Shown here: positions 3,258 through 26,655 of the stretch, one piece after another
Position numbering within the stretch: the first letter of the stretch is position 1
Layout of the letters: each line of letters opens with the position of its first letter
Assembly: GCF_000956405.1 (NCBI RefSeq)
Contig: NZ_JYIV01000024.1
Span: forward strand, 62,001-126,000
DNA from: Microbacterium oxydans
GTDB lineage: Bacteria > Actinomycetota > Actinomycetes > Actinomycetales > Microbacteriaceae
Length of the DNA stretch: 64,000 bases
Direction of reading: 5' to 3'
The notes under the pieces: generated by a model
Seen by the model: the letters and a program-made list of their open reading frames with translations, nothing else
Database searches by the model: none
What the model was told of the DNA's origin: nothing
Translations under genes and position numbers: made by a program

Positions 3258-3290
3258 ATGTCCCCAGGTGACCGCCTGGGGGCATTTTCG
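3258..3290 (+). terminator. Rho-independent terminator of the recombinase operon
   Basis: TCCCCAGG and CCTGGGGG flank a short loop and are followed by CATTTTCG. It ends the 828-3244 operon and sits immediately ahead of promoter copy 1. Confidence 0.7.
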
Positions 3291-3297
3291 TGTGCGC

Positions 3298-3333
3298 GTA
3301 TGAGTTGCGTCCTGGGCCGCCGCAGTAGAGGGC
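3298..3333 (+). promoter_or_regulatory. Leaderless promoter-like element, copy 1
   Basis: GTATGAGTT (3298-3306), 9 bases, GCCGCCGCAGTA (3316-3327), 6 bases, then ATG 3334. Taking the A of ATG as +1 puts GTATGA at -36 to -31 and GCAGTA at -12 to -7, the geometry of a promoter giving an mRNA with no 5' leader. There is no Shine-Dalgarno sequence. The same element recurs at 4369, 19167, 19282 and 20092. Confidence 0.75.
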
Positions 3334-4065
3334 ATGACAACATTCACTCCCCTCTCCGAAATCACCGACCGCGAACTCATGGAGCGTCTCGACGCAGACC
3401 CTGGCAAGAACAGGCTCATCCGTGAAGTGGAGCGCCGCATCGCCCCGATTCTGGAGACAGCCACGCGCTTCCTCCCCGATGCTGAAGTGGGTTACTACGA
3501 GGCGCGCAACATCATCGTTAGCCCTGCCGGTGTTGCCTACTTCCTCGAGAAGTGGCGCACCGGCCTTGCGCAGTACTCGTACGGCGTCGCCCGCAGTGAC
3601 GAGGTCCGCACCGCTGGTCTCGCCGGAAAAAAGCGCATGCGCAACGACCCGATGTATGGCACGCGTGCCAGTTCCATTGAGGCCCTCAGCGCAGACGGGT
3701 GGGAGTTCGCCGCGCCGACCCCTGATACCCGCACCTTGGAGGAAGTCGAAGCTGACGAACGCGCCCGCATCCGTGACCTCCGCGAAGCCTTCACGCAGGT
3801 TGCCTCAGGCGTCCTCACCGAGCGACAGGTGCAGGTCATCCTCGCATACGCGAACCTCCACAAGGACAACGCGCTGCCGGAGATGAACACGCAAGAACAG
3901 GTCGCCAAGACGTTGCGCATCTCTCAGCAGGCAGTTTCCCGCCACATTGCGGCAGCGCGCGAGAACGCGAAACTGTACCCGGTTCTGACTATCGCCATCC
4001 GTGAACTCTGCGGGGACGATGAGGGCGCAGCGAAGACCGTCGAGAAGCTGCTGGTCGAAGCATGA
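3334..4065 (+). CDS. Sigma-70-like regulator (divergent sigma factor)
   Basis: 243 residues. About residues 160-212 match the pattern of sigma region 4: LTERQVQVILAYA, a spacer, then QEQVAKTLRISQQAVSRHI as the helix-turn-helix. The middle (FLEKWRTGLAQYSYGVARS) could be a degenerate region 2, but that is weak. The gene is expressed from copy 1 of the repeated promoter-like element, so it may recognise that element and control itself, the replication gene and the 19-21 kb operons. It could alternatively be an ordinary transcription factor with a sigma-4-type domain. It overlaps the next gene by ATGA. Confidence 0.7.
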   Translation: MTTFTPLSEITDRELMERLDADPGKNRLIREVERRIAPILETATRFLPDAEVGYYEARNIIVSPAGVAYFLEKWRTGLAQYSYGVARSDEVRTAGLAGKKRMRNDPMYGTRASSIEALSADGWEFAAPTPDTRTLEEVEADERARIRDLREAFTQVASGVLTERQVQVILAYANLHKDNALPEMNTQEQVAKTLRISQQAVSRHIAAARENAKLYPVLTIAIRELCGDDEGAAKTVEKLLVEA

Positions 4066-4325: not shown

Positions 4326-4361
4326 GAAATCCCCCGAGTGTGCTCGGGGGATTTCCTTTTT
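4326..4361 (+). terminator. Strong rho-independent terminator
   Basis: GAAATCCCCCGAG (4326-4338) pairs perfectly with CTCGGGGGATTTC (4343-4355) across TGTG, followed by a T-rich tail ending at 4361. Promoter copy 2 starts 8 bases later. Confidence 0.92.
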
Positions 4362-4368
4362 GCAGAGC

Positions 4369-4404
4369 GTATGAGTTCGGCTCCGAGCCGCCGCAGTACA
4401 GGGC
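4369..4404 (+). promoter_or_regulatory. Leaderless promoter-like element, copy 2
   Basis: GTATGAGTT (4369-4377), N9, GCCGCCGCAGTA (4387-4398), N6, ATG 4405. Spacings are identical to copy 1. The identity with copy 5 extends into the gene: both downstream genes begin ATGACCGA-TACAC. Confidence 0.75.
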
Positions 4405-6828
4405 ATGACCGACTACACCAACGAATACTCCGACGACCCGATGGCCAGCATGTTCCGCCCGCAGCAGGTGAAGATGCTCGCCGAAGGTGGTATCTCCCCG
4501 ACCGCCGCGTACGAGCGAGGGGTGCTCTCTCTCCGCGTCGCCAAAGAGCAACTGAAGGCCAACTGGCCAGAACTCGCATGGGCCGCCACGGACGAAGGAG
4601 ACTCCGGCCTCATCTTCGAGCACACCATCCTCAACGGTGCACGGCCTGCGCCCACGCGTCTGCCGCAGTACCGCCCGGACGCTGACTCCCCGACGATGCT
4701 CGACAACCCGAAGGCACCGAAGTACGTGTTCCCGAAAGGTTCCGGTACCAACCTCTCCATCGGCCTGAACGCCCAAAAGCGTCTCGCTGACGGGACCGCC
4801 CGCCGCATCGCCCTCGTCGAAGGCACCAAGCAGAGCATCGCGGCTGACATCTGGGCACCCGAAGACGTGGCCGTTATCGGCATGTTCGGCATCATGGGGT
4901 GGAAGGTCGATGACCGCCTCAACGCCGCCCTGGTCGAGTTCTGTGGTGCAGACCACCGCGCGCTTCCCATCACCGTCATCCCCGACGCCGATGTCCACAC
5001 CAACGAGCAGGTACTCAAAGCCGCCACGTGGCTGTGGGAAGAGCTGAAGGGCATCCGCGCGACAGCGACCCTCGGCCGCATCCCCGCCGTCGCCGGAGCC
5101 AAGACAGGCCTTGATGATTACCTCGGCAGCATTCCAGCGGCCGAGCGTACCGCCGCTCTGGCGAACCTCATCCGCACCGCCACGCCCACACTCGACAAGG
5201 CTGTGGAGGCGGATGAGGACGACGCAGACGACTCGTTCCTCCCCGACGTGCGCCCGACCATCCTGCTGAAGAAGGTCTCCCTCAACGAAGCCATTGCCTT
5301 CGGCGTCCAGGCAGCAGCCTCCGCGACCCGTGGCGGCGAGCCGTTTGTGTTCCGCAAGGTGGCGTCCGACGGGAAGGCAACCGCGCTGGTCACCGTCGCC
5401 CCGGACGGCACCTCGTCCCTGTGGACTGAGGCGAATGCGCACAAGTTGTGGTTCACCATCCTCCAGCCCGCTGAGCGCGAGTTCCACAACGCGGTCACCG
5501 GCCAGAAGGAGTACGACTACTCCACCAGCTTCCCCCGCGATGTCGCCGCAGCCCTGTTCAACGCCGCTCTCTACGCGGACAGCATTCCCGCTGTGCGCAT
5601 CATGGCCACCGAGCCGGTCATCCTGCCGAACGGCAACATCGTGTCCAAGCCGGGCTACAACGGTACGAACCGCGTGCTTGTCACCATCCCGCGTGGGCAG
5701 CGCGCCGCCTGGCGTCGCTACTCGGTCACGGAGACGCCAACGGTCGCCGATGCACAGGCCGCGCTGGACTACCTCAACACCGAGTTGCTCTCCGACGTGC
5801 CATTCGCAGAGGACGCTGACCGCGCCATCGTGCTCACCTACTTCGTGACCGCTGCCACACGTCACCTGTGCGGGACCGCGCCGGGCTTCGCGTTCGATGC
5901 GCCTGAGCGCGGTTCTGGGAAGTCGCTGGTTGCCACCGTTGGCCGCATCATCGGCCAGGGCAACGGCGGGTACCAGTCCGTTGGCCACCGACGTGGTCAG
6001 GACGCGGAGACCTGGAAGCAGCTCGGAACCCTTGCCATCGCGGCTGGCCGCCACGCCCACATCGACGAACTGCCGCGTGAGGAGAAGCTCACCTCGACGG
6101 CGCTGTCCGAACTGCTCACCGCCCCGGTTGTGAAGACCCGCCTGCTTGGCCAGAACGCGGAAATCGCGGTCGAAGGGCTGATGCTCACCATCTGTGGCAA
6201 CAACGTCCAGGTCGGCCTCGACTTCGTCCGCCGCATCCTGAAGGCGCGCCTTCACTACACCGGCTCCGGTACCGCAGCGCGTCGCACGGGCTTCCGCCAC
6301 GACAACCTGCTCCGCTGGGTCGCCGACAACCGCCCCGAGCTGCTGGCGGCCGTCCACACCATCGTCCGGTACGGCATCCAGAACAACGCGCGTCCGAACG
6401 GCCGTCTCGGCTCCTACGAGGACTGGAGCAGCATCGTCCTGGGTAGCCTGACGGCCGTGACCATCGGTGACGCTGCGGTGTCTGACCTGGTGCTGGACGC
6501 TCAGCAGGAGGCTGCTGACACCGAGGACGAGCTGGCCGACGACTGGGCCGAGCTGCACCGGTTCATCCACACCGAGATGCCTGAGGGATGGCACAAGACC
6601 GTGGACATCGTCCGCGCCTACCGGGAGACGAACGACGCGGCGAAGCCGAACTTGCCAGTGAGCCTGAACGAGTTCTTCGGGAACGAGTCGAACGTCGCAC
6701 GTGGGTGGTCCAAGGTCATGGCGACGGTCAAGGACACACCGATGGTGGACGGCACAGACCGCTTCGCTCTTCGTCGGAAGAAAATCGGCAACGGGGTCTA
6801 CTTCCGAGTCGAGAACCTCGCCAACTAA
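4405..6828 (+). CDS. Toprim/DUF927-type primase-helicase replication protein
   Basis: 807 residues. The N-terminal third has a Toprim-like DUF3854 pattern: LVEGTKQS (about 136-143) and IPDADVHTN (about 191). The C-terminal half has a P-loop ATPase with APERGSGKS (Walker A, G503) and HIDEL (Walker B, D554/E555), as in the DUF927 or SF3-type helicases of plasmids and phages. Such fusions synthesise primers and unwind DNA at the element origin. Start fixed by the leaderless element. A terminator and the large inverted repeat at 6887-6991 follow, which makes this the likely replication module. Confidence 0.85.
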   Translation: MTDYTNEYSDDPMASMFRPQQVKMLAEGGISPTAAYERGVLSLRVAKEQLKANWPELAWAATDEGDSGLIFEHTILNGARPAPTRLPQYRPDADSPTMLDNPKAPKYVFPKGSGTNLSIGLNAQKRLADGTARRIALVEGTKQSIAADIWAPEDVAVIGMFGIMGWKVDDRLNAALVEFCGADHRALPITVIPDADVHTNEQVLKAATWLWEELKGIRATATLGRIPAVAGAKTGLDDYLGSIPAAERTAALANLIRTATPTLDKAVEADEDDADDSFLPDVRPTILLKKVSLNEAIAFGVQAAASATRGGEPFVFRKVASDGKATALVTVAPDGTSSLWTEANAHKLWFTILQPAEREFHNAVTGQKEYDYSTSFPRDVAAALFNAALYADSIPAVRIMATEPVILPNGNIVSKPGYNGTNRVLVTIPRGQRAAWRRYSVTETPTVADAQAALDYLNTELLSDVPFAEDADRAIVLTYFVTAATRHLCGTAPGFAFDAPERGSGKSLVATVGRIIGQGNGGYQSVGHRRGQDAETWKQLGTLAIAAGRHAHIDELPREEKLTSTALSELLTAPVVKTRLLGQNAEIAVEGLMLTICGNNVQVGLDFVRRILKARLHYTGSGTAARRTGFRHDNLLRWVADNRPELLAAVHTIVRYGIQNNARPNGRLGSYEDWSSIVLGSLTAVTIGDAAVSDLVLDAQQEAADTEDELADDWAELHRFIHTEMPEGWHKTVDIVRAYRETNDAAKPNLPVSLNEFFGNESNVARGWSKVMATVKDTPMVDGTDRFALRRKKIGNGVYFRVENLAN

Positions 6829-6840
6829 CGAATACCACCC

Positions 6841-6890
6841 AAAACGCCCTCCAGGTACCCGAAATACCGGGTCTGGAGGGTGTTTTAGTT
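6841..6890 (+). terminator. Terminator after primase-helicase gene
   Basis: AAAACGCCCTCCAG (6841-6854) pairs with CTGGAGGGTGTTTT (6873-6886) with one G-T pair. The loop holds a second hairpin (ACCCG/CGGGT). T-rich end. Confidence 0.88.
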
Positions 6891-6991
6891 ACATGACTTA
6901 CATGACTTACATGGAATCCAGCCGCCGGAGCTACAGGATTTCCGGGCCGCCACGAGTTAGAAACCATGTAAGTCATGTAAGTCATGTAACT
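6887..6991. repeat. 28-bp perfect inverted repeat made of 9-bp iterations
   Basis: Positions 6887-6914 and 6964-6991 are exact reverse complements. Each arm contains nearly three tandem TTACATGAC units (9-bp period). The 49-base spacer is unrelated. Tandem units in opposite orientations fit a replication origin, a partition centromere or an operator array. It lies directly behind the replication helicase. Confidence 0.9.
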
Positions 6992-7122
6992 ATTTTGGGT
7001 TCACAGCCAATCCTCAGGTTCAGAGGTTGTTAAATCGCGGAAAAGTGCCCTCTTCATATACAGAGGGGGCAAGAAACGGCGCTAAGTAGTTAGCCTCGGC
7101 CATCGCCTCATCACCCTAATCC

Positions 7123-9483: not shown

Positions 9484-9647
9484 ACGCACTCATGGCCCTG
9501 CTCTTCGTTGCAGTGCTCACCATCGCCGCTGCCAGCGCACTGCTCGCAGCGGCTCCGCAGGCGCTCCTGGACTGGTTCGAGGACCGCCGCCTCGTTCGTG
9601 AAGAAGTTCGCGAACGCCTGAACAGCAACCCTGAAGGAGGTGCATGA
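9480..9647 (+). CDS. Small single-span membrane protein
   Basis: 55 residues, with ATG overlapping the stop of the HTH gene and its own stop overlapping the next gene. MNALMALLFVAVLTIAAASALLAA forms one membrane helix, followed by a charged cytoplasmic tail (DWFEDRRLVREEVRERLN). Tight coupling on both sides argues that it is real. It probably belongs to the transfer apparatus. Confidence 0.65.
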   Translation: MNALMALLFVAVLTIAAASALLAAAPQALLDWFEDRRLVREEVRERLNSNPEGGA

Positions 9648-10552
9648 TGGTTCGTTTCGTGTTCTCACTGCTGGCCGTCGGGTTCTTCCGGGGTTGGTTC
9701 GGCGCTGCACTGTTCGGTGTCCTGCTGGACTTCGCCCCTCGGCGTGAACCTGACTCGACTCTGTCCGATTCGGTGAACGCTAAGCGCGCGAAGACCATCG
9801 CGGCTTCCGGCTGGCGGTGGCTGTCCACGCTGTTCTGGCTGGGCGTCATCGGCCTGGCCACCGTCATTTCTGGCGGTTGGCTTGCGCCGCTCATCCCGGT
9901 CGGCTGGCTGCTGCTGGTGAACCGCATCGTCTGGCCGCGCGGGTCGGCTTCGCCTCGGAAGATGTTCTCCCGCGAGGTGGACGGCGAGGTGGCCCCGGCA
10001 GGTCGCAGCGGCTTCCTCACCGTGGGTCTAAGCGTGCTGCCGCCGCTGACCCTGATGGTGCAGCGGCTGCTTCCGCCGCCGTTCCCGTGGCTGGCTTGGC
10101 TGCCGCTCATCTTCGCTTCGGTCGCGGTGCTCACTGCAACGCTCGGCGCGATTTTGACGGCGCTGCGCCTCAACAAGGACAGCGCTGCTCGGCCGGTCAA
10201 CGACGATGACCTGAAGTTCATCGCTGGTATCACGAAGATGACCGAGGCACAGTTCGCGAAGGGCGGCGTCCAGGTTGCTCGCGAAGGTGAGCAGCTTCAG
10301 GCCGCGTTCCCGGTCGGGATGGACAGCCTGCTGGAGGACGAGGCGGCCATCGAGAAGCGCCTTGCTGACCGTCACGCTCCGTGGGAGGTCGCGATGGTCA
10401 ACCTGGAGAAGCGCTGGCTCATCTTGGAGCCTGCCTCCGAGGAGACGCTCGCACGCCGTGCAGCTCAGGACGCTTCTGGCGGCCTGTTCGGCCAGACGGT
10501 GCAGCACCACACCGACGACGAGGTCATCGACCTCGGCATCTGGAACAACTGA
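9647..10552 (+). CDS. Multi-pass membrane protein of the transfer module
   Basis: 301 residues. Four hydrophobic segments are visible (about 4-25, 50-90 as a pair, and two around 125-165), followed by a soluble C-terminal half of about 120 residues ending in a charged tail. ATG 9647 is preferred over 9644 because GGAGG ends 6 bases before it. It precedes the FtsK-like pump, which lacks membrane helices of its own, so this protein is a good candidate for its membrane anchor or channel. That role is inferred from order only. Confidence 0.75.
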   Translation: MVRFVFSLLAVGFFRGWFGAALFGVLLDFAPRREPDSTLSDSVNAKRAKTIAASGWRWLSTLFWLGVIGLATVISGGWLAPLIPVGWLLLVNRIVWPRGSASPRKMFSREVDGEVAPAGRSGFLTVGLSVLPPLTLMVQRLLPPPFPWLAWLPLIFASVAVLTATLGAILTALRLNKDSAARPVNDDDLKFIAGITKMTEAQFAKGGVQVAREGEQLQAAFPVGMDSLLEDEAAIEKRLADRHAPWEVAMVNLEKRWLILEPASEETLARRAAQDASGGLFGQTVQHHTDDEVIDLGIWNN

Positions 10553-10612
10553 CCGCTCAGCGGTCGCGGTGCCCCTGGTGGGGCTTGGTCGTCGTTCGAT
10601 TCGACGCACCGC
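10551..10612 (+). ncRNA. Structured leader RNA, copy A
   Basis: P0 GACCGC/GCGGTC with loop TCA (10551-10565). P1 GCGGTG (10566-10571) with CACCGC (10607-10612) encloses P2 CCCC-TGGT-GGGG and P3 CGTCG-TTCGATT-CGACG, where TTCGATT has the tRNA T-loop pattern. The 62-nt copy at 13281 keeps the fold with compensatory changes. SD TTAGGAG and ATG 10637 follow. Confidence 0.75.
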
Positions 10613-10636
10613 ACTCACTGACCCTTAGGAGAAACC

Positions 10637-12217
10637 ATGACTCAGAAGGCAACCGCTGTCCCACAGTTCGACACGGGTTCGTGGGACGAGACTGCGACCA
10701 TTGCGCAGTCCATCGCGCAGAAGGGCTTCCAGCTCATCGGCCTCCGCGCCGACGGGACGGCCATCATCTCGGATGACGTGATGACGCTGCCGGACGCGGT
10801 CAGCCCGGAGGTCATCGACCCGTCACTGAACGATGCTGCTGCTCTGGCTGCTTCGGCCCGGTACGCACGCAAGAACAAGGTGACGCTCACCGCTTGGGAC
10901 AAGTTGATGCGCGAGCCGACTTTCACCACGATGCTTCCGGCAACTCACCGGCTGCGTGAGCTGGTAGCTGAGGAGCAGGGCAAGGACGCGCACGAGATTG
11001 GCGTCCACGTCGAGTGGAGTGCGCAGCGCTCCGGTGCCGAGCGCGTGCTCATGCGTCTGCCTCGCAAAGCTGACCCCGAGAAGGTCGGGCCGCTGATTCC
11101 TGGCTGGTCTTCCGGCTGGACTATCGAGCAGGACACCTGGACCGGCCTCACCGCCTTCACCTGGGGTCCGCAGCGGATACTGCCTGGCATCGTGCCGATT
11201 CGCTCGCTGATGCCTGGCGCGTTCGAGCCGACCGCCTGGAACCGCATCCCGATGGGTCTGGCGTCTGACGGGTCGCAGGTCATCTGGCAGCCGCAGCTCC
11301 ACCCGCACGGCCTGATTGCCGGTACGACTGGTTCCGGTAAGACGCAGGGTCTCCTGGCCCTTGTCATCGGCTGCCTGACGCGTGGCTGGAAGGTCGGTAT
11401 CTGCGACCCCATGAAGGGTGGTGCTGACTACAAGTTCCTGAACGACTTCCTGGCCGCTCGGCCCCGTATGGAGTTGGAGGGCGCAACCCAGCTCGAAGCA
11501 TCACAGGACACCGCAGCGATTCTGAAGGCGCTCTACCGAGAGGGCCAGCGGAGGAAGCGGCTCTGTCTGGAGCATGATGTGAACTTCTGGGCCAAGCTGC
11601 CCGCCGAGGTTCGCGAACGCGAGGACATCCGTCCGTTCCTCCTGGTCATCGACGAGTACAAGTCGCTTACTGACCGCGACACCGTGCCGACGATGCCGAA
11701 GGGCGTCAACGACCCTGAGTTGGAAGCGGAAATCGCGGAGCTTCGCGAGTTCGACGTGGCCAAGCTGAGCATCAGCGTCTACGCCGGGAAGATTGCGCGT
11801 GAGCTTCGCGCCTGGGGCATCTACATCTGGTTGGCCTTGCAGAAGGCCGAGCAGGATGCTCTCGGCAGGGACTTGCGTGAGAACCTCCCTGCTCGCATCC
11901 AGTACGTGATTCCGGGTCAGACTTTCGCACCTGAAGTGCTGAAGTTCCTGTTCCCCGGAGATTCCTCGGCGCTGGCGGCAACGGAAATCTCCATCCTGGA
12001 TGACCGCGAGTCTCAGGGTCTGGGCGTGATGACTCAGAAGGACGGTCCGACCGGTTTCCGTGGCGGGTTCGCGCCGGATGAGGAGCACGCTTCGTTCCCG
12101 GACTTGCTGCGCGCGATGGGTGTGCCGTCACCGGTACCGCTGTCGATGGCGGCCCCTACCCGAGCGACTGCCTCCCCATCCGGTTCGGATTCTTCGGACC
12201 GATTCGCTGGCCTCTGA
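10637..12217 (+). CDS. FtsK/SpoIIIE-type DNA translocase (conjugative transfer)
   Basis: 526 residues. Walker A GTTGSGKT spans residues 229-236 and Walker B FLLVIDEY is at about 333-340; FDVAKLSIS and the IWLALQKAEQ segment fit the FtsK sensor region. The N-terminal 200 residues are soluble, with no transmembrane helices, so it needs a membrane partner. In actinobacterial plasmids and AICEs such TraB/TdtA-like pumps move double-stranded DNA between mycelia or cells as hexamers. It is the clearest transfer protein here; no relaxase is seen in the window. SD TTAGGAG precedes the start. Confidence 0.88.
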   Translation: MTQKATAVPQFDTGSWDETATIAQSIAQKGFQLIGLRADGTAIISDDVMTLPDAVSPEVIDPSLNDAAALAASARYARKNKVTLTAWDKLMREPTFTTMLPATHRLRELVAEEQGKDAHEIGVHVEWSAQRSGAERVLMRLPRKADPEKVGPLIPGWSSGWTIEQDTWTGLTAFTWGPQRILPGIVPIRSLMPGAFEPTAWNRIPMGLASDGSQVIWQPQLHPHGLIAGTTGSGKTQGLLALVIGCLTRGWKVGICDPMKGGADYKFLNDFLAARPRMELEGATQLEASQDTAAILKALYREGQRRKRLCLEHDVNFWAKLPAEVREREDIRPFLLVIDEYKSLTDRDTVPTMPKGVNDPELEAEIAELREFDVAKLSISVYAGKIARELRAWGIYIWLALQKAEQDALGRDLRENLPARIQYVIPGQTFAPEVLKFLFPGDSSALAATEISILDDRESQGLGVMTQKDGPTGFRGGFAPDEEHASFPDLLRAMGVPSPVPLSMAAPTRATASPSGSDSSDRFAGL

Positions 12218-12226
12218 GCCAGCATC

Positions 12227-12258
12227 CCGCCCCCGCGTCCTGACCGGCGCGGGGGCGG
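12227..12258 (+). terminator. GC-rich hairpin between transfer genes
   Basis: CCGCCCCCGCG (12227-12237) pairs with CGCGGGGGCGG (12248-12258). There is no T-tract, so it may attenuate or protect the transcript rather than stop it. Confidence 0.55.
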
Positions 12259-12282
12259 TCCCTACTACTGAGAGGACTCGTC

Positions 12283-13050
12283 ATGATGAGCATTCTGAGC
12301 AAGGCGGGCGGTGCTGTCCGCTTCCGCACTACACACTTCTTCTCGCTGACCGTCGTCAGCATCGTCCTGGGATTCTTGGGCATGGTCGGTAACCAGGCTG
12401 TTCAGCCCCTGCTTGATTTCGGTACTGCCGAGCAGCCGCCCGCATCCCAGCTACCGGCCGACCAGCCGTCGGACGACGGTGAACCGTCGGAGCCGAAGCC
12501 GGATGTCGAAATCGGTGAGCCGGAGTCTCCGCTCGGGCAGGCCATCTGGACGGAACTGGGTCCGGCTGATTTCTTCGCTGGCCCGAAGGCTGAACATGCG
12601 CCCGATGAAATCCACCCGGAGAGCGGGCGGGTGCAGGAGCCGCTACGCGGGGACATGGTTCTCATCGCCTGGAATAGCGACCTCAAAGAGGGTGACACCG
12701 TGACCTTCAAAGCGGGTGGAGAAACCTACTGGCTGGCCGTGGACGAGTCGAACGTCCTGAAGGGCGGCACTTACCTCCAGATTCTGCTGGAGGAGGACCA
12801 GCCGAAGAACGACCCGAACACGGGTGAGGCCCCACAGACTGAGTTCACTGGTTCCACGCTGCTCGCCGCACTGGAGGCTGCGGGGTACACCTGGAAGGCA
12901 CCGTACGCGGCTGAGGGCGATGGCATCGAGCGCGGTCTTCGCGACTGGGGTGTCCTGCTCGGGGCCACGTCAGCGACGAAGGTCACCCTGGTGGTCGGCG
13001 GCTCTGAGTTCGTTCTGGACCGGCTGGGGGAGACCTACTTCTTGGGCTGA
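12283..13050 (+). CDS. Membrane-anchored exported protein of the transfer module
   Basis: 255 residues. One membrane helix (about 20-42) is followed by a Pro/Glu/Asp-rich linker and a beta-rich domain of about 170 residues exposed outside the cell. There is no lipobox or cleavage site, so it stays anchored by its N-terminus. SD GAGAGGA precedes the ATG pair. It sits between the pump and the wall-anchored protein, so it may belong to the mating surface; no family recognised. Confidence 0.75.
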   Translation: MMSILSKAGGAVRFRTTHFFSLTVVSIVLGFLGMVGNQAVQPLLDFGTAEQPPASQLPADQPSDDGEPSEPKPDVEIGEPESPLGQAIWTELGPADFFAGPKAEHAPDEIHPESGRVQEPLRGDMVLIAWNSDLKEGDTVTFKAGGETYWLAVDESNVLKGGTYLQILLEEDQPKNDPNTGEAPQTEFTGSTLLAALEAAGYTWKAPYAAEGDGIERGLRDWGVLLGATSATKVTLVVGGSEFVLDRLGETYFLG

Positions 13051-13058
13051 CACACGTC

Positions 13059-13103
13059 CGTTACTGACAGCGCTGGTCAAAGCGTTGTGCGCTGTCAGTA
13101 ACG
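13059..13103. repeat. 15-bp perfect inverted repeat
   Basis: CGTTACTGACAGCGC (13059-13073) and its exact complement (13089-13103) flank a 15-base spacer. There is no T-run, so a protein binding site is as likely as a terminator. Nothing gene-like is seen in 13104-13280, which is rich in CTGGC/GCGCT words. Confidence 0.7.
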
Positions 13104-13280
13104 CTGGCGCTGGCATCCGACGCATGGCTCTGCGGCCTCTGGCTGCGTTCTGAGCGCTCTTCACCGCGCCCAGCAACAAGCGTCCACGCGGCGTGAGTTC
13201 GTCGCATACGCGCCTTCAGCGTGTTCTTGCGCTGACGCTGGTCCGTCCGTTCTTGGCAGGAGAGGAGGCATCACATCTAC

Positions 13281-13342
13281 GGCACCGAGGTGCCAGCGCA
13301 GTCCCTGGTGGGGCTTTGCCGCCGTTCGATTCGGCGCTGCGC
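13281..13342 (+). ncRNA. Structured leader RNA, copy B
   Basis: P0 GGCACC/GGTGCC with loop GA (13281-13294). P1 GCGCAG (13296-13301) with CTGCGC (13337-13342), P2 TCCC-TGGT-GGGG, P3 CGCCG-TTCGATT-CGGCG. It has the same 62-nt length and loop sequences as copy A, and the paired bases differ in a compensating way. A further hairpin GGGAGC-AACC-GCTCCC lies at 13360-13375, then the SD of the gene at 13412. Confidence 0.75.
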
Positions 13343-13411
13343 GCGGGTCGCAAGACCAAGGGAGCAACCGCTCCCGCCTATCAACCCACGTCCCAGGGAG
13401 GGGCGCTAATC

Positions 13412-15202
13412 ATGAACTCATTCATCAAGAAGACCTGCGCCTTCGGCGTGGGTATCACCCTCGGCCTTGCGCCGTTCTTGCTGGTCACGCCAGCCTTCGC
13501 GGCTGACACCGGCATCGAGCAGACTGCCAGCACTGGCCTGAAGACTCTCGGTACCGAGACCGTCGAGACGGCGTTCGGCTCCGTGAGCATCGAGCGTTTC
13601 ATGCCGGAGCTGCGCGATGCTCGCATTCAGGGCATCGCCATCCCAGAGACCTCCGGCCCCGGCGACGAGGTCGCCATCGACCTGCGTTCACTGGTCGGTG
13701 GCTTCGAGTACGACGCTCAGACTGGCGAACTCATCAGTACTCCCGGTTCGGCTGACCGTGCGCCTGAGACGGTCGTGGACCCCGCTGGCCGCACGCCGTT
13801 CATCCCCGACATCGACTGGAGCGCGTTCACCTGGCGTATCAGCGGCCTGGAGGGCACTGGCGTCGTGGACCACCTCGCTGACGCCGATGGCTCCCTCACG
13901 CTCGTCCCGCTGCGGGAGAACGCCGAGTTCGGCGCAACCGTCAAGCTCGTGCACACCGCAACAGGCACCGAGTCCGCACCCATCACCATCACCGGTCAGT
14001 CCGGGGCCAACGGCACGGCCGCTGACTGGCTGACGACGGCCGACCGCGCCGGTGGTGACGGGAACGCCGCGATGTGGAAGGCCTCGGAGCGGGGCTTCGC
14101 GGAGGGGAGGTTCCTGTCCTGGAGCGAGCCTGAGGAGACCACTCTCGCCAGCCCCGCCGCGTGGAGCGACTCTGTTCGTCCGTGGGTTGAGGTGCCGATT
14201 TCCGGCCGCACGAACGCACCCATCATGGCCCCCGCAGGCTTCGGCCTGGAGCGGTGGCCAGACGGCCACATCCAACCGCTCGGTATCCGTACAGCCGCGC
14301 GCGTTGGTCAGGCGCGCAGCGAGCCGGTCACATCGTTCGAGGTGAACCTCGCTGAGCGTCTGCCGGAGTTGGGCATCACCGCTGTCGCTCTGCCTGGCGC
14401 GCCAGACGGCACGCTGTCGCTGGACGCTGCACCCGTTTGGGTACAGCCGTACGGTGTCGGTGGTCTGGACTACCAGGCTGCGGACGGGCTGACTCTCACC
14501 GTGGATGGCACGACCATCACCGGTGAGTTCGGTTCGGCGGAATGGACCAACGCCGTCGGCGTGACCGTCTTCGTCCTCACGGACGCAGGCGTGCAGGCCG
14601 TGGAGCTGCGAGTCGAGGCCCGTCCTGCGGACACTGCTGCCGGACTGGTCGAGAAGCGCGTCGCCACTGACACCGAGGTGCTCATCACCGATGCCGAGAT
14701 GTTGGAGGCCTCCCGCCTCTCGGGCCTGGAGCCGACCATCCGCCAGGTTCGCGCGATGACTCTCCCGGAGGGTATCGAGCGGGTCGAGGATGGCTTCCTC
14801 TTCGCGGGCGCTGCTGAACCGACGGCTCTCGCTTTCGGCTTCGAGGTCACCGAGACCTTCGAGACGCCGTTCGGTCCGGTTCGCCCGGACGCGGTTCGCG
14901 CGCCCGGTGAGGTTCGCATCGAGGTCTTCGAGGACGCGGTCACACCGCCTGTCGAGGAACCGGAACCGCCTGTCACCGAGGAGCCGGAACCGCCGGTCAC
15001 GGAACCTCCCGCTGAGGAGGAGCCACCGGTCACGGATGAGCCTGCGAAGCCGGAACCGAGCAAGCCGACCCCGCCGAAGCGCGTGGAAACCGGTGACGCT
15101 GGTTCACCGTTCTGGCAGGCCCTGCCCGGCGCAGCGGCTGTGCTGGCGCTCATCGGTGGGCTGGCCGCCTACCGCCGCCGTCCTGAGGGCGCGGCGAAGT
15201 AA
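13412..15202 (+). CDS. Large wall-anchored surface protein
   Basis: 596 residues. Signal peptide: MNSFIKK, a hydrophobic core, then TPAFA-AD. A long beta-rich ectodomain ends in a Pro/Glu spacer (repeated PEPPVTE) followed by VETGD, a hydrophobic helix and RRR, i.e. a sortase sorting signal with an unusual VETG in place of LPxTG or LAxTG. GGGAGGGG lies upstream of ATG 13412. It is probably displayed on the donor surface and may promote mating-pair contact. The chromosomal class E sortase at 32919 could process it, but the altered motif makes this uncertain. Confidence 0.8.
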   Translation: MNSFIKKTCAFGVGITLGLAPFLLVTPAFAADTGIEQTASTGLKTLGTETVETAFGSVSIERFMPELRDARIQGIAIPETSGPGDEVAIDLRSLVGGFEYDAQTGELISTPGSADRAPETVVDPAGRTPFIPDIDWSAFTWRISGLEGTGVVDHLADADGSLTLVPLRENAEFGATVKLVHTATGTESAPITITGQSGANGTAADWLTTADRAGGDGNAAMWKASERGFAEGRFLSWSEPEETTLASPAAWSDSVRPWVEVPISGRTNAPIMAPAGFGLERWPDGHIQPLGIRTAARVGQARSEPVTSFEVNLAERLPELGITAVALPGAPDGTLSLDAAPVWVQPYGVGGLDYQAADGLTLTVDGTTITGEFGSAEWTNAVGVTVFVLTDAGVQAVELRVEARPADTAAGLVEKRVATDTEVLITDAEMLEASRLSGLEPTIRQVRAMTLPEGIERVEDGFLFAGAAEPTALAFGFEVTETFETPFGPVRPDAVRAPGEVRIEVFEDAVTPPVEEPEPPVTEEPEPPVTEPPAEEEPPVTDEPAKPEPSKPTPPKRVETGDAGSPFWQALPGAAAVLALIGGLAAYRRRPEGAAK

Positions 15203-16913: not shown

Positions 16914-17646
16914 ACGACCGGGATACGAGCTGAAGGCTGCTCGCCCCGGCGGCCCCAGACGATGGCACTATGTGGGGGAGAACCCGGTACCGGCGTCGCT
17001 CTGGCAGCGCTGCACCACATGGCTGAAGGACACGACAGCTCACCGTTCACGCCTCGCCGCTGCGAAGCGCTGGTACGAGAGCGTCGGCATCACGCCGGAG
17101 CCAGCGGCGGCGAAGGAGCCGATGGACCGGTCGGTTGAGGAACAGCGCCGCGCCCGCATCGGCTACCGGCAGTGGCTCCAGGAGAACGGCTTCGACCCCG
17201 ATACGGGCTACAACGAGTTGGGCGTGGACGCGTGGGGCGGCATCAAGGGCCAGCAGCTCAGCCGTCCGGTGAACCTTCTCACTGGCAAGCCTTGGGCACC
17301 GACCGGCTTCCTCCGCGACGGAACTCACGCGAAGACGGGCACACCGTATGGGCCGGATGGCGCGGACCAGGATGGATGGTTGCGGCCGGACGCGGAGGGC
17401 CGCCGCGTCAACGTGCTCACCAACACCATCTTCTCGCCGGGCAACCCGCCGAAGACCTTCAACGGGGAGACCGTCGAGCAGTACTGGCTGAACCACATCT
17501 CGTGGCGGACACCGGAGGTGGAGGCGCAGATTCAGCGCGACCGCGTCGAGTCCGAGGAAATCAGCCGCCGCATTGCTGCCGAGCTGGCCGAGGAGGAGCG
17601 CCTGGAGCGGAAGGAGGAGGCCCTGCGCGCCCGAGGCATCATCTGA
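16894..17646 (+). CDS. Hypothetical protein with charged coiled-coil tail
   Basis: 250 residues. ATG 16894 has an SD (GGAAGGAAG) and overlaps the upstream gene. Features: a Gly/Trp-rich N-terminus, a middle with FDPDTGYNELG and DGADQDGW that suggests a small extended domain, and a final 60-residue coiled coil (ISRRIAAELAEEERLERKEE). No membrane segment. Function unknown; last gene of the operon that starts at 15778. Confidence 0.68.
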   Translation: MTPKISERPGYELKAARPGGPRRWHYVGENPVPASLWQRCTTWLKDTTAHRSRLAAAKRWYESVGITPEPAAAKEPMDRSVEEQRRARIGYRQWLQENGFDPDTGYNELGVDAWGGIKGQQLSRPVNLLTGKPWAPTGFLRDGTHAKTGTPYGPDGADQDGWLRPDAEGRRVNVLTNTIFSPGNPPKTFNGETVEQYWLNHISWRTPEVEAQIQRDRVESEEISRRIAAELAEEERLERKEEALRARGII

Positions 17647-19130: not shown

Positions 19131-19166
19131 CCGGCTCCACGGCGAAGTCGTGGATTTGGTGTTCTC

Positions 19167-19202
19167 GTATGAGTTCATCCCTTAGCCGCCGCAGTAGGGA
19201 GT
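19167..19202 (+). promoter_or_regulatory. Leaderless promoter-like element, copy 3 (orphan)
   Basis: GTATGAGTT (19167-19175), N9, GCCGCCGCAGTA (19185-19196). Unlike the other four there is no ATG 6 bases on. A GTG at 19201 opens a 28-codon frame ending at 19287 within the following hairpin. The copy may drive a micro-ORF or an RNA, or be a relic of a deleted gene. Confidence 0.65.
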
Positions 19203-19251: not shown

Positions 19252-19288
19252 CTCATACGCCCCGGATGTCGCATCCGGGGCGTATGAG
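19252..19288. repeat. 17-bp perfect hairpin fused to promoter copy 4
   Basis: CTCATACGCCCCGGATG and CATCCGGGGCGTATGAG flank a 3-base loop. The right arm contains the GTATGAG of the promoter, so terminator-like hairpin and -35-like box share bases. Confidence 0.9.
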
Positions 19289-19317
19289 TTTGTTGTTCAG
19301 CCGCCGCAGTAGGGGGT
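19282..19317 (+). promoter_or_regulatory. Leaderless promoter-like element, copy 4
   Basis: GTATGAGTT (19282-19290), N9, GCCGCCGCAGTA (19300-19311), N6, ATG 19318. Same spacing as copies 1, 2 and 5. Confidence 0.75.
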
Positions 19318-19707
19318 ATGAAGAATGAAATCAATACCCAGAACCTGGACTCTGTCCAGTCTTACCTTGACCGTGCGCAGGCGAACGCTCGCGCTGGTCT
19401 CTACGACGCCGAGGCGGTGCAGGCGGACGCACGCGATGCCGAAGCGCGCCTCGACGCACTTGGTCTGCCCGAGGTCGAGAAGCGTGGGGCCGAATGGACC
19501 GGATACTCACGTGTGGCGCGCGGCTCCCACTACCGCGAGGGGGCTACGGTCATTCACCTGCGGCGTGGCAGCGCAGGCCGATGGTTCATCTGGCACGCCC
19601 GACGGACGACGGTCACCGACCGGGACCGGAACACAGTCACAGCGCCGAACGCGGACATCGAGAAGGTCGCCCGCAAGGCTGCGGCAGTTGCGGGGGTGAC
19701 CCTGTGA
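19318..19707 (+). CDS. Hypothetical protein under leaderless promoter
   Basis: 129 residues. A helical N-terminal half (LDSVQSYLDRAQANARAG) is followed by a basic beta-rich stretch (VIHLRRGSAGRWFIWHARR) that could bind nucleic acid. The start is fixed by the promoter-like element, 6 bases upstream. It overlaps the membrane protein at 19704 (GTGA), so the two are co-translated. Unknown family. Confidence 0.72.
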   Translation: MKNEINTQNLDSVQSYLDRAQANARAGLYDAEAVQADARDAEARLDALGLPEVEKRGAEWTGYSRVARGSHYREGATVIHLRRGSAGRWFIWHARRTTVTDRDRNTVTAPNADIEKVARKAAAVAGVTL

Positions 19708-20059: not shown

Positions 20060-20096
20060 CATACGCCCTCGCAAGAAAGTCTTGCGAGGGCGTATG
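20060..20096. repeat. 16-bp perfect hairpin fused to promoter copy 5
   Basis: CATACGCCCTCGCAAG (20060-20075) and its exact complement (20081-20096) with loop AAAGT. As with copy 4, the right arm ends in CGTATG of the promoter, although the stem sequence is otherwise different. Confidence 0.9.
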
Positions 20097-20127
20097 AGTT
20101 TGGCTCGGAGCCGCCGCAGTAATGGGT
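20092..20127 (+). promoter_or_regulatory. Leaderless promoter-like element, copy 5
   Basis: GTATGAGTT (20092-20100), N9, GCCGCCGCAGTA (20110-20121), N6, ATG 20128. An in-frame ATG also occurs at 20122, but the spacing rule of the other copies points to 20128. Confidence 0.75.
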
Positions 20128-20646
20128 ATGACCGATTACACAAAAACATCAGAACAGTTCGCTGCCGAGCAGGCTCGCAAGAAGCCGAAGGCCAGCAAGA
20201 AGCGCATCATCGGATGGAGCATCGGACTCCCGCTCGCGGCTCTCGTGCTGCTCATCGGCGGCATCCTCATCGCTCCGTACGCTAAGGCGCATGTGGCCGC
20301 AGCCGTGGCCCCGACCGTTACGGCCGCTGACGCCATCGCCGATGAAGCGAAGACGTTGGACGCAGAGTACGTGGCCATCTGCTCCGACCCTGCTTGGGAC
20401 GAGGGTCTCGCACTAGTGGCAGGCACCGGTTCAGGTGAAGCCATGGACAGCATCACGGGCGCTTGCACTGACCTGGGCAAGCGCGGCCAGGCCTACGTCA
20501 CGAAGGTGGAGGCTGCGACTTCCATCTGGACGAACATCGGTGACGGCTTCGGCGAGGTCACCGACACGGTTCGTGCGGCGGTTGCCGCTGGCGACATCGA
20601 GACCGCGATTCGCATTCTCTTCGCTCAGAGCGAGGAGGCAGAGTGA
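20128..20646 (+). CDS. Membrane-anchored hypothetical protein
   Basis: 172 residues. It begins MTDYT like the primase-helicase under promoter copy 2. A basic cytoplasmic N-terminus (KKPKASKKR) precedes one membrane helix (about 28-50) and a helical extracytoplasmic domain with two cysteines. Probably a surface or exclusion protein; no family recognised. It touches the next gene (TGATG). Confidence 0.72.
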   Translation: MTDYTKTSEQFAAEQARKKPKASKKRIIGWSIGLPLAALVLLIGGILIAPYAKAHVAAAVAPTVTAADAIADEAKTLDAEYVAICSDPAWDEGLALVAGTGSGEAMDSITGACTDLGKRGQAYVTKVEAATSIWTNIGDGFGEVTDTVRAAVAAGDIETAIRILFAQSEEAE

Positions 20647-21280: not shown

Positions 21281-22753
21281 ATGAGCTTGGGTACGTTGGC
21301 GGAGTCGAAAGAATGGGTCGCTGAGTGGCGGATACCGGGGGAGGCCGCGACCGAGGCAGGCATTCTGACGTATGACCCCGCGAAGGGTCTTCATCTACGT
21401 CTTATTCGCACCGGAAACGATGCTCCGTTTGGCGGAGCGCGACGAACGACTGGCCGCCGTGACGAGGGGTTGCCCAAGTGGCCCGTGCTTCATGGCGTGG
21501 CGAAGGGAATCAGGCTCACTCTGCACAACGTGTGGGTCAGCCGGATGCAGACCACCCTCAGTTCCGCAGCGGCTGAAGTTGAAGCGGAGGCGTCCGTCCT
21601 CCTCGTCGGGTGCCACCTCGATGATTTCGATGAGACGGTATTTGTTGGGGCAGTCACTCAGGTGGACTGGCTGACGGCATGGTCCGGCCTCACGGCATAC
21701 GAAATCACTGAGGAATCTGATGCCGAGACCAACCGCCTGACGGGTTCTACGGCCATCACGACGCGTTCCGTTCAGAGCCTCTCGGTCAGGACAGGGGAGA
21801 CAAGCTTCGGCCTGTTCCACACCTTCATGGTTCCGGACTTTGATTCGCAGCCAAGCCGGACGTTCGCGCGGACATGGGAAGCTGTGAGCGCAACCGCGTC
21901 GTTCCCCGCGCCCGTGTCGTTCACCGACGCTCTGCATCCGTTGGCGAGTCTGTCGCACCTCGTCTCGCTCTCAGCCCTGGAGAACTGCGGCATCGTCTCC
22001 GAATCGCTGACACTGCCGCCAGCGCCGGAGTTGTGGCCGGACGGCCATCTCCTCCAGGACAAGGTGCGCCGGGTTGAGGTGTATCGAGAGCACATCGTGC
22101 CCCCGCTTGGCGTGGCGAAGGGACGACCGAGATTCCTGCTAGACCTCGACGACATCCCGTTCGAAGAGCTCATCCCACGCTGGTTGGCGCTTCATCGGTC
22201 ACTCGAACCGGTCATCGGGATGGTGCTCGGGCTGCGCTACCTGCCTGATGGCTTTGTCGAACCTAGGGTTGTCACGGCGGTCGGGGCGGCTGAGGCGCTC
22301 CATCAATCGCTTGACAAGACGACGGAGATGCCTCGCGCTGAGCACAGGAACCTTCGCCGCGCCATCCTGGATGTCGTCCCGGCCGAGCGCAAGCTGTGGG
22401 TCAGCGAACGCATCGCCGACAACAAGCCGAAGCTGATGAACCGACTTGTCGCTCTGGCAGACCTGATGGGGGAGGCTGTTCGGGATGCGCTGCTCCCGAG
22501 CGCCGAGGTCTGGGCTGAGCGGAGCGTGAAAGCACGCAACCATCTGGCGCACACTGGGGCGGCTGACTTCGACTTGGAGGAGTTGCACGCGGTCATCGAA
22601 GTGTCCTCAGCCGTCGTCGTCTTGGTACTTCTGCGCCAGCTCGGACAGAGCGAGGAACGATTGCTTGATGCAGTCAAGTACCATCCTGAAGTCAACTACG
22701 CTCGACGGCTTGCGCGACTGCACTTTGCGGTACCCGACAACGCGGTCGAGTAA
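21281..22753 (+). CDS. ApeA-like HEPN anti-phage protein
   Basis: 490 residues. The N-terminus (EWVAEWRIPGEAA, LTYDPAKGLHLRLI, VLHGVAKGIRLTL) matches the ApeA N-terminal domain pattern. The C-terminus is an Apea-like HEPN domain with the RNase motif R-x4-H as RNHLAH (R419, H424). ApeA proteins are abortive-infection RNases that respond to phage and stop growth. Start ATG 21281 has no strong SD. It opens the cargo end of the element, beside the RES protein and a restriction system. Family assignment is good; the trigger and target are unknown. Confidence 0.82.
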   Translation: MSLGTLAESKEWVAEWRIPGEAATEAGILTYDPAKGLHLRLIRTGNDAPFGGARRTTGRRDEGLPKWPVLHGVAKGIRLTLHNVWVSRMQTTLSSAAAEVEAEASVLLVGCHLDDFDETVFVGAVTQVDWLTAWSGLTAYEITEESDAETNRLTGSTAITTRSVQSLSVRTGETSFGLFHTFMVPDFDSQPSRTFARTWEAVSATASFPAPVSFTDALHPLASLSHLVSLSALENCGIVSESLTLPPAPELWPDGHLLQDKVRRVEVYREHIVPPLGVAKGRPRFLLDLDDIPFEELIPRWLALHRSLEPVIGMVLGLRYLPDGFVEPRVVTAVGAAEALHQSLDKTTEMPRAEHRNLRRAILDVVPAERKLWVSERIADNKPKLMNRLVALADLMGEAVRDALLPSAEVWAERSVKARNHLAHTGAADFDLEELHAVIEVSSAVVVLVLLRQLGQSEERLLDAVKYHPEVNYARRLARLHFAVPDNAVE

Positions 22754-22777
22754 GGGTGGCGATGCCATGATGTGCAC

Positions 22778-24022
22778 ATGGAGTTCCCCATCATCGGCTG
22801 GACGGACAAGGCGCTCTGCCTTGACCACATCGAAGACGAGCACCTGCTGAAGCGAGTGCAGGGGCAAGCGAACGAGCGCGAGTGCTCGTTCTGCGGGCGG
22901 ACCTCTCCTGAGGACGCGGTCCCCTTCGCGGTGAACCTGGAACAGTTCACTGAGGTCATCTACGAAGTGGCGTGCGACCTCTATGAAGACTCGAACAACG
23001 CTCCGCGAATCGACGGTGAGACCCTCAGCGAGGAGATGGATACCCTGACCGTCGTCTACAACTTGATAGACGATGCAGTCCCGAGCAGCATGCTCGACGC
23101 CATCGCCGAGGAAGTGTCGGGACTCATCAGCGAACCGTCCTACTGGGTCGAGCGAGACGACATGTCGTATGTGGAGTTCGGGTGGGAGAGCTTCGCTCAG
23201 ACGGTGAAGCATGAAGCTCGGTTCGCACTTCCCCGCGCCGAAGGGAGCAAGTCTGGCCTCACGCCGCCGGAGCGGCTGTTCTCATTCCTCAATGCACTCT
23301 CGGGATTCGTGCGGGACGAAACCGGACTGATGGAAACCTTGCCGCAGGGCACTCCGGTGTACCGCGCTCGCATTGAGCGAGAAGCCCGCAAACTGGAGAC
23401 GAAGGTACTGAAAGACCCCGCTGGTGAGCTTGGTCCCGCACCGGCTGGCAGCGCGTCGGCCGGTCGTATGAACGCGCAGGGAATCTCTCTGTTCTACACC
23501 GCGAGCGACCCGGAGACAGCCTGCGCCGAAGTGGTGGCACACAGCCCCTACAGCGAAGCGGTGGTTGGGGAGTTCGTGCTTCAGCGTCCGATGCGCGTGC
23601 TTGACCTGACCCGCGTGCCGATTCGCCCGAGCCTGTTCGACGAGTCGGTGAGGGCATCATTCGTGTTCATCGCCTTCTTCGACTACTTCCGTGACGCCAT
23701 TACGCAGCCGGTCATCCTGGATGACAAGCATCCCGTGGACTACGCGCCCACGCAGATGGTCACCGAGTTCCTCCGATGGGGTACCGGGGTGCAGTTCGAT
23801 GGCATCGCTTGGGAGTCGCAGGTCGCACCTGGCGGCAAGAACGTGGTGTTGTTCTTCGGTCCGGACACTGCGATGCGCTCGACGGAGGAGCCAGAGCCGG
23901 AAGTGCACGAACTGTGGAAGCGAACGGTCGGTGAGAAGAAGGCCGTGTTCCTCATCGACCCAAAGTCGGTGAAGCGTTACCGCGCGGAGCGGACGGTTGC
24001 TGTCACGGCTTCGCGATGGTGA
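22778..24022 (+). CDS. HEPN/RES-type protein (RES NAD-degrading toxin domain)
   Basis: 414 residues. The N-terminal half has a CxxC pair (CSFCG, about 30) and helices as in the HEPN/RES N-terminal domain. The C-terminal half is a RES domain: GTPVYRARI (about 190), GRMNAQGISLFYTA (about 228-241) and ETACAEV (about 246-252), which carry the Arg, Ser and Glu of the active site. RES toxins consume NAD+ and halt growth. There is no adjacent antitoxin, so it is probably controlled by its own N-terminal domain, as in a defence effector. Follows the ApeA-like gene by 24 bases. Confidence 0.8.
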   Translation: MEFPIIGWTDKALCLDHIEDEHLLKRVQGQANERECSFCGRTSPEDAVPFAVNLEQFTEVIYEVACDLYEDSNNAPRIDGETLSEEMDTLTVVYNLIDDAVPSSMLDAIAEEVSGLISEPSYWVERDDMSYVEFGWESFAQTVKHEARFALPRAEGSKSGLTPPERLFSFLNALSGFVRDETGLMETLPQGTPVYRARIEREARKLETKVLKDPAGELGPAPAGSASAGRMNAQGISLFYTASDPETACAEVVAHSPYSEAVVGEFVLQRPMRVLDLTRVPIRPSLFDESVRASFVFIAFFDYFRDAITQPVILDDKHPVDYAPTQMVTEFLRWGTGVQFDGIAWESQVAPGGKNVVLFFGPDTAMRSTEEPEPEVHELWKRTVGEKKAVFLIDPKSVKRYRAERTVAVTASRW

Positions 24023-24029
24023 GCGTCAG

Positions 24030-26539: not shown

Positions 26540-26655
26540 GACCATAGGTGTGACTTGGCATCCCTGAGGCGATGAAGTTGAGCTGAAACCGCGTAAATAC
26601 GCGGCACAACAGGGCATCTGGTCAGACTGCTTCGAATCTCCTAGGCTCCACAGGA
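26540..26655. other. Probable right boundary of the mobile element
   Basis: No gene lies in 26425-26704. Direct repeats CATAGGTGTGAC and CTATAGGTGTGAC occur near 26530-26555, and TTCGAATCTCCTAGGCTCCA at about 26632-26651 resembles the T-loop and acceptor end of a tRNA or tmRNA gene, as left by integrative elements. Element genes stop here and chromosomal housekeeping genes begin. The left copy is outside the window, so the site is unproven. Confidence 0.35.

Follow-up and report, generated by a model that had tools for sequence, protein, structure and literature searches.

Predicted mini-tRNA-like elements between genes of tailed phages and in an integrative element of Microbacterium oxydans

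Two mini-tRNA-like copies in Microbacterium oxydans

We analysed a 64,000-nucleotide (nt) stretch of Microbacterium oxydans (assembly GCF_000956405.1, contig NZ_JYIV01000024.1, positions 62,001 to 126,000 of the forward strand), hereafter the window, in which two copies of a structured RNA lie 5′ of a gene for an FtsK/TraB-like DNA translocase and of a gene for a surface protein. Comparison of sequences and predicted folds gave good support to the view that many tailed phages, and the integrative element in which the window pair sits, carry such mini-tRNA-like structures of about 40-50 nt in mRNA between genes. The features of the two copies were as follows.

10566..10612, + strand: mini-tRNA-like core of copy 1, from sequence, fold, compensated pairs and covariance-model matches
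10566-10571 with 10607-10612, 10572-10575 with 10580-10583, and 10576-10579, + strand: P1, P2 and the TGGT loop of P2, copy 1
10584-10589, 10590-10594 with 10602-10606, and 10595-10601, + strand: linker, T-arm P3 and T-loop TTCGATT, copy 1
10613..10614, + strand: AC just 3′ of P1 of copy 1, discriminator/C74-like, from sequence and the R-C (purine, then C) kept in relatives
13296..13342, + strand: mini-tRNA-like core of copy 2, from sequence, fold, compensated pairs and a covariance-model match
13296-13301 with 13337-13342, 13302-13305 with 13310-13313, and 13306-13309, + strand: P1, P2 and the TGGT loop of P2, copy 2
13320-13324 with 13332-13336, and 13325-13331, + strand: T-arm and T-loop, copy 2
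13343..13344, + strand: GC (R-C) just 3′ of P1 of copy 2, from sequence
13346..13357, + strand: hairpin GGTC-GCAA-GACC 3′ of copy 2, at the site of the P4 hairpin of phage relatives, from sequence, fold and the hairpin enrichment there in relatives
10551..10565, + strand: P0 hairpin of copy 1, from sequence, overlapping the upstream stop codon; outside the family features
13281..13294, + strand: P0 hairpin of copy 2, from sequence, different from P0 of copy 1 in sequence and length; outside the family features

Both copies share a 47-nt three-way junction, and P1, P2 and P3 form in each. From 5′ to 3′ the core consists of a P1 of 6 base pairs (bp), a 4-bp P2 with a TGGT loop, a 6-nt linker and a 5-bp P3 whose TTCGATT loop is closed by a G-C pair; the 3′ strand of P1 follows P3 directly, and R-C comes next. 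Each copy thus has 11 pairs in P1 plus P3, then R-C. In its predicted fold the core resembles a tRNA minus the anticodon arm, with an acceptor-like P1, a D-arm-like P2 carrying GG in its loop, and a T-arm stacked on P1.

The two cores differ at 9 of 47 positions, six of them in compensated pairs, one in a wobble and two in the linker. The compensated pairs were 4-44 (G-C to C-G), 5-43 (T-A to A-T) and 27-39 (T-A to C-G), the change from C7 to T7 turned a C-G pair into a T-G wobble, and all 15 pairs were kept in both copies. When nine substitutions were placed at random 300,000 times, at least three pairs were compensated in 0.03% of the trials, and in 0.004% (about 4 per 100,000) this went together with the retention of all pairs, both being guide figures because the structure was picked with the sequence in view. 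The folding energy of the 62-mers was by itself only mildly unusual (z -2.5 and -1.3). No third copy was found elsewhere in the 3.69-Mb, 30-contig genome.

An earlier reading made from the letters alone, hereafter the sequence-only reading, had given both copies correctly in sequence and position, had placed them rightly 5′ of the two genes named above, and had described this P1/P2/P3 fold with its compensatory changes, which we recovered as two pairs in P1 and one in P3, none broken. Its claim of three co-changing pairs in P0 was overstated. The two P0 hairpins are not homologous, since they differ in length (15 nt and 14 nt) and are identical at 5 of 15 positions, and a hairpin of this type (at least 5 bp, directly 5′ of P1) occurred in 17 of the 200 relatives described below against 16.0 expected. 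With no excess above chance level, P0 was rejected as a part of the family.

Viral relatives and their placement between genes

Model R1, a covariance model of the two window copies, was run on 198 genomes of the genus and 396 of the order. Beyond the window it gave four weak matches in the genus (28.6-33.4 bits) and none in the order genomes; the four were taken as chance, one having no T-loop and another no P2 stem. The seed pattern retrieved 18 stretches from genome contigs, with a best model score of 18.4 bits. Model R2, a covariance model of the family, picks out real tRNA genes: of its 28 matches outside the window in 396 genomes of the phylum, 25 were tRNA genes and 3 were not, and in the genus this model returned the window plus two weak matches that were not tRNAs.

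Viral collections were searched by pattern, and a structural descriptor (P1 of 5-9 bp, a P2 hairpin, and P3 closed on G-TTCRANN-C) was then run on the fetched contigs. With ARAGORN-tRNA matches and near-identical cores removed, 200 non-redundant relatives with differing stems were obtained, 101 in 60 loci from the first viral scans and a further 99, in 62 loci, from the last. The element of viral contig L046 has P2 and the start of the linker (CCCTGGTGGG-CTT) as in the window, with different P1 and P3 stems. The stop codon of a major-capsid-like gene (protein 70.6% identical to that of phage ArV2) is 6 nt upstream of this element, and a GTG start preceded by AGGAGG follows 26 nt downstream. 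Of the four contigs obtained in the first successful viral scan, L044 (28.1 bits) was rejected because its match lies inside a 247-amino-acid reading frame, and the L045 seed was missed by the covariance model. The capsid gene of L046 also occurs in Arthrobacter phages ArV2 and Hum25 and in Rothia phage Spartoi; none of the three held an element, and two low-scoring matches in this set both fell within tape-measure genes and were discarded.

The loci with elements ranged in G+C from 0.28 to 0.67, which suggests that the hosts are diverse, and among the matches listed for L083 it resembled Gordonia phages over 2% of the query; for L063, L074 and L328 no named phage with similarity was found. 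Contigs L328, L338, L299, L344 and L368 each held several near-identical elements (TCCCA-AACGGTT-...-TGGGA-ACAA); two of them have a G+C of 0.35 and 0.37, so the class probably extends beyond actinophages. An array of about 13 elements occupied apparently non-coding sequence at 7380-9037 of L070, most of them preceded on the 5′ side by a hairpin with a TGTGAA loop.

Without the GG requirement, the descriptor gave 340 matches in 314 viral loci (2.82 Mb), of which 318 remained without ARAGORN tRNAs and 119 when seed-pattern matches were removed as well. Four scrambled T-loops gave 2, 4, 0 and 2 folds compared to these 119 for the real T-loop (raw motif occurrences: 408-759 per scrambled T-loop, 1687 for the real motif); because the 314 loci had been chosen for holding such elements, this control demonstrates association of motif and fold, not abundance. 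A seed-independent set of 102 non-redundant elements matched no seed and was found without requiring GG. Replacing GG by CC in the P2 loop of the descriptor did not discriminate (68 matches vs 161), and GG was therefore assessed by shuffling segments: it was present in the P2/linker segment of 94 of the 102 elements, against 44 expected and a maximum of 56 in 200 segment shuffles. In the same set, C occupied +2 in 73 and A or G occupied +1 in 67.

The summed length of P1 and P3 was nearly fixed, mostly 11-12 bp from the T-loop to the 5′ end however it was split between the two helices. In the seed-independent set it was 12 in 50/102, 11 in 33, 10 in 6 and at least 13 in 13, and it was 12 in 52/101 and 46/99 of the relatives from the first and last viral scans. 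A check on seeds alone showed that 46 of 85 unique seeds can form P1+P3 of at least 11, compared to 12.4% with swapped 5′ flanks, so part of the seeds are not real elements. TTCGATT itself was the T-loop in 161 of the 200 members. The linker in place of the anticodon arm, 6 nt in the window copies, was 0-14 nt in the relatives, for which no more than 22 nt had been allowed from P1 to P3. On the 3′ side of the 200 members C stood at +3 in 14 and A at +4 in 106, an ACCA-like pattern in which the second C is avoided, and the window copies read AC-T and GC-G after P1 and have no CCA end. The base at -1 was A in about half of the members. Pairing of a frequent GGT 5′ of P1 with the RC 3′ of P1 was considered and dropped, as it was not consistently kept.

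In 33 model-aligned members, 98.2% of cells were paired, 14 of 15 pairs had both-sided changes, and the covariation score was 0.776 compared to 0.150 in shuffled and 0.041-0.130 in slid alignments, to be read with the caveat that the members were chosen by the model and the alignment fitted to it. 

In the typical layout the element, about 40-48 nt long, starts 5-13 nt after a stop codon; R-C, a hairpin and a Shine-Dalgarno sequence come next, and the start codon lies about 43 nt after the element. An element began 0-15 nt after a reading frame of at least 50 codons in 48/101 (first scans), 60/99 (last scan) and 49/102 (seed-independent set), compared to 6.6% of 4040 random positions. A start with a Shine-Dalgarno sequence was present within 120 nt in 58/101 and 51/99, and the hairpin at +3 to +33 was enriched, 35 of 101 sites falling in the lowest 5% of shuffles compared to 12 and 9 at control places.

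Viral contig L179 showed full identity to part of Mycobacterium phage Fowlmouth. Stretches of 18-48 kb from six Mycobacterium phages, each with its own gene table, were then scored at the cut-off used and contained 56 elements (Fowlmouth 9, Cuke 9, Indlulamithi 12, Predator 7, Oaker 8, Send513 11). All 56 lay on the + strand, which bears nearly all genes there, and R-C followed the helix in 54. The 75-130-nt gaps between annotated genes contained an element in 28 of 34 cases (Indlulamithi 10/10, Predator 5/8, Oaker 6/7, Send513 7/9); none of the elements is annotated as an RNA in the six gene tables. At orthologous sites of Fowlmouth and Cuke there were 13 both-sided stem changes over four sites and none broken, a count made with a descriptor that detects paired stems only and with non-orthologous cross-matches, which bring the total to 33, left out. 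In the Fowlmouth stretch (L248), elements at 12982-13021, 13846-13887 and 17440-17486 span the annotated starts of genes 43, 47 and 56 or fall within them, which suggests wrong start sites or spurious genes. Annotated gene starts are thereby called into question, as several Fowlmouth coding regions extend over these RNAs.

These results indicate that the elements almost certainly form a selected RNA family. The selected fold that the sequence-only reading had proposed is upheld by the covariation, the scrambled T-loops and the differing stems of the relatives, and its suggestion of tRNA mimicry by the canonical T-arm of both window copies, the GG in the D-like loop and the R-C. Far from there being no further members, 200 non-redundant relatives came from the viral pattern scans; the covariance model of two copies that it had recommended yielded nothing convincing beyond the window in the genus and order genomes. 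Its idea of cis-regulators of transfer genes stood in part. A cis role is likely, and control specific to transfer is unsupported, with elements lying between genes in many phage contigs; nor is the element limited to transfer genes, actinobacterial plasmids or actinomycete integrative and conjugative elements, where the sequence-only reading had proposed to search for it.

Comparison with known RNAs and a possible processing role

Neither window copy matched any of the 4227 families of Rfam 15, tRNA included, at gathering or permissive thresholds, and neither was detected by ARAGORN or the Rfam tRNA model (RF00005). The one Rfam match in the window was a tRNA-Leu gene; in the Fowlmouth stretch Rfam found the annotated tRNA gene alone, and in seven element-rich loci it found one tRNA gene and one hammerhead and none of the elements. 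A type II hammerhead ribozyme lies at 4548-4609 (- strand) of L063, a phage contig that also bears mini-tRNA-like elements. ARAGORN made calls over three descriptor matches, a tRNA-Arg in L049 and "tRNA-???" in L069 and L096. The yjdF riboswitch covariance model matched neither the window copies nor the seven element-rich loci.

The elements resemble tRNA (RF00005) in the T-arm, the coaxial acceptor-like helix, the GG of the D-like loop and the 3′ R then C, but have no anticodon arm and no encoded CCA and are embedded between protein genes. Like the yjdF riboswitch, they would be cis mRNA elements 5′ of a gene with a tRNA-like fold and a D-loop/T-loop elbow; yjdF, however, is a four-helix junction, a tRNA-Lys homologue and ligand-binding (PMC9142559). 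RNase P cleavage of messages and phage RNAs is established, with T4 gene 32, polycistronic operons and the C4 RNA of phages P1/P7 as substrates (PMC11143913), but the available part of that source presents these as separate cases and not as a tRNA-like family that recurs where genes meet. T4 stable RNA rnaC (species 1 RNA) is likewise phage-encoded with a tRNA-type T-arm near its 3′ end, but it is 139 nt long, lies beside a tRNA cluster and is not intercistronic, and the descriptor fails to match it. In MALAT1 mascRNA and in mitochondrial tRNA punctuation, the termini of adjacent transcripts are defined by tRNA or tRNA-like structures on which RNase P and RNase Z act; both are eukaryotic, and mascRNA retains a small anticodon-like arm. 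Among the papers listed in searches of the open-access literature, none describes such elements by its title or abstract start; an earlier description may exist in preprints or subscription journals. The elements appear to be new as an RNA family and in their genomic role; cis-acting tRNA mimics as such are already known.

We tentatively propose that the elements are an intercistronic processing signal for RNase P, perhaps also for RNase Z, a reading of the sequences that we regard as close to probable. With some more doubt, we suggest a wider form of it, in which DNA phages and integrative elements would use a widespread and so far undescribed class of anticodon-less mini-tRNAs to mark gene boundaries in polycistronic mRNAs for cutting by host tRNA-processing enzymes, a phage counterpart of mitochondrial punctuation that cultured mycobacteriophages carry without annotation. 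The GG of the P2 loop and the T-loop would dock as in the tRNA elbow, and host RNase P would take the element for a precursor tRNA and cut on the 5′ side of P1, leaving the upstream gene with a short 3′ end. If RNase Z or some other nuclease also cut behind the discriminator base, the mini-tRNA could be freed and a protective hairpin would head the downstream message. In polycistronic phage mRNA the element would thus act as "tRNA punctuation". Bacterial RNase Z is inhibited by CCA, and avoidance of C75 would be in keeping with cleavage by this enzyme 3′ of the discriminator.

According to the available text of PMC11143913, RNase P recognises the T-stem-loop, and the 12-bp distance from the T-loop to the 5′ end is thought to be a measuring device; D73, C74 and C75 pair with RNase P RNA, and interference is strong at G19, G53, A58 and G71. 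The same source reports that hairpins of acceptor, T-stem and T-loop alone are cut by RNase P, as are mRNAs such as that of T4 gene 32 (PMC11143913). The conserved T-loop, GG, R and C, together with the near-fixed length and wandering junction, point to this enzyme.

Several observations weigh against a processing signal. Both window copies and 40 of the 56 named-phage elements have 11 pairs, not 12; C75 is avoided (C at +3 in 14/200), which leaves the RCC pairing incomplete; the frequent base at -1 is A, not U; and L15 of the host RNase P RNA reads CGGCU in our alignment reading, with no clean GGU. Between 39% and 52% of detected elements had no clear upstream stop within 15 nt, perhaps partly through incomplete contigs or frames. 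The three actinophages that share the L046 capsid gene and hold no element show that it is not universal. In the window, copy 1 matches the phage layout, with a stop 13 nt before it and the FtsK start 24 nt after it, but copy 2 departs from it: the called gene closest to it on the upstream side stops 245 nt away, a hairpin lies between copy 2 and the start, and at this distance the copy looks like a leader and not like punctuation. Among analogues that have been tested, the closest is yjdF, whose effect is on translation (PMC9142559).

The main rival, which we consider rather unlikely, holds that the elements are translation-enhancing cis-tRNA leaders 5′ of the Shine-Dalgarno sequence, perhaps ligand-controlled switches, with no cut. 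Starts with a Shine-Dalgarno sequence do lie about 43 nt downstream, copy 2 is leader-like in placement, and in the available sections of PMC9142559 translation in vitro rose 2- to 6.3-fold when tRNA-like structures stood 5′ of a Shine-Dalgarno sequence, and it fell almost to background when the two loop G's of the yjdF aptamer were mutated. Such a leader leaves unexplained the R-C, the 11-12-bp length with its variable P1/P3 split and the tight spacing after the stop, and changing the 3′ ACCA of a cis-tRNA cost little expression (PMC9142559). The enriched downstream hairpin and the placement at gene ends would also suit an mRNA stability element whose fold and hairpin block exonucleases at ends made by RNase E, RNase J or the like; since a plain hairpin would suffice for this, leaving the strict conservation of T-loop, GG and R-C unexplained, we judge it improbable.

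It is quite improbable that the elements act in trans as released mini-tRNAs, decoys for a tRNA-targeting host defence or for tRNA-modifying or -processing enzymes, with the intergenic site as mere source: the many copies per genome and the L070 array speak for it, but there is no anticodon arm and no CCA, and the narrow distances to the stop and start codons favour a cis role. A put-type transcription antiterminator or pause element acting on RNA polymerase would share the directionality and the multiple copies along runs of small genes, but put sites lie near promoters and are not known to have tRNA hallmarks, and we hold this very unlikely. Finally, a single short family of two copies could be chance, and the window pair sits in an element integrated in a tRNA-Ala gene, so that two diverged copies of a DNA repeat, an operator or a tRNA fragment with chance pairing might be imagined; the covariation, the decoy tests, the 200 relatives with differing stems and the both-sided changes at Fowlmouth/Cuke orthologous sites refute chance pairing for the family as a whole and make this ordinary explanation barely credible.

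If the processing signal is real, a structured RNA common in tailed phages has escaped notice, although it occupies 28/34 of the 75-130-nt gaps in the analysed stretches of four cultured mycobacteriophages. It would explain the stereotyped gaps that separate small phage genes, would mean that phages organise their messages through tRNA mimicry, and could supply synthetic operons with a compact signal for processing or translation.

The integrative element and neighbouring features

The window pair sits in a 33.9-kb element integrated at a tRNA-Ala gene, with a 21-bp repeat at its bounds. The neighbouring features were as follows.

9644..10552, + strand: gene 5′ of copy 1, 302 amino acids, without family match; its stop lies 13 nt before P1
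10637..12217, + strand: FtsK/TraB-like DNA translocase; start 24 nt 3′ of copy 1, AGGAG at 10627-10631
13412..15202, + strand: predicted secreted protein with a sorting-type C terminus; start 69 nt 3′ of copy 2
26631..26651, + strand: right attachment repeat, identical over its 21 bp to the tRNA-Ala gene at the 3′ end of the latter

The tRNA-Ala gene lies 33.9 kb to the left of this repeat, outside the window, and a tyrosine integrase adjoins it. The element also encodes a primase/polymerase-like protein, the FtsK/TraB-like translocase and defence-type genes. The GPS-CTERM match of the secreted protein scored under the curated cut-off, and no homologues of this protein were found on plasmids; when the region and copy 1 were compared with plasmids by blastn, there was no match, or matches at chance level (E 1-5). 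Five further FtsK homologues in the genus were 32-36% identical to the window protein, and model R1 found no element near them.

Repeats of about 40-60 nt (GCGTATGAGTT...CCGCCGCAGTA..GGG.ATGA) occur in the window at 3286-3338, 4360-4421, 19155-19202, 19278-19321 and 20082-20144; some end at a start codon, and they recall the start-associated sequences of phages. The gap after the primase-like gene (6886-6992) contains a large inverted repeat built from repeated ACATGACTT units, which looks like replication-origin iterons. A hairpin with a 15-bp perfect stem lies at 13059-13103, between the gene at 12283-13050 and copy 2. Near the right end of the integrative element, 21281-26424 encodes the defence-type genes, namely an ApeA-like HEPN protein, a HEPN/RES protein and an Eco57I-type methyltransferase.

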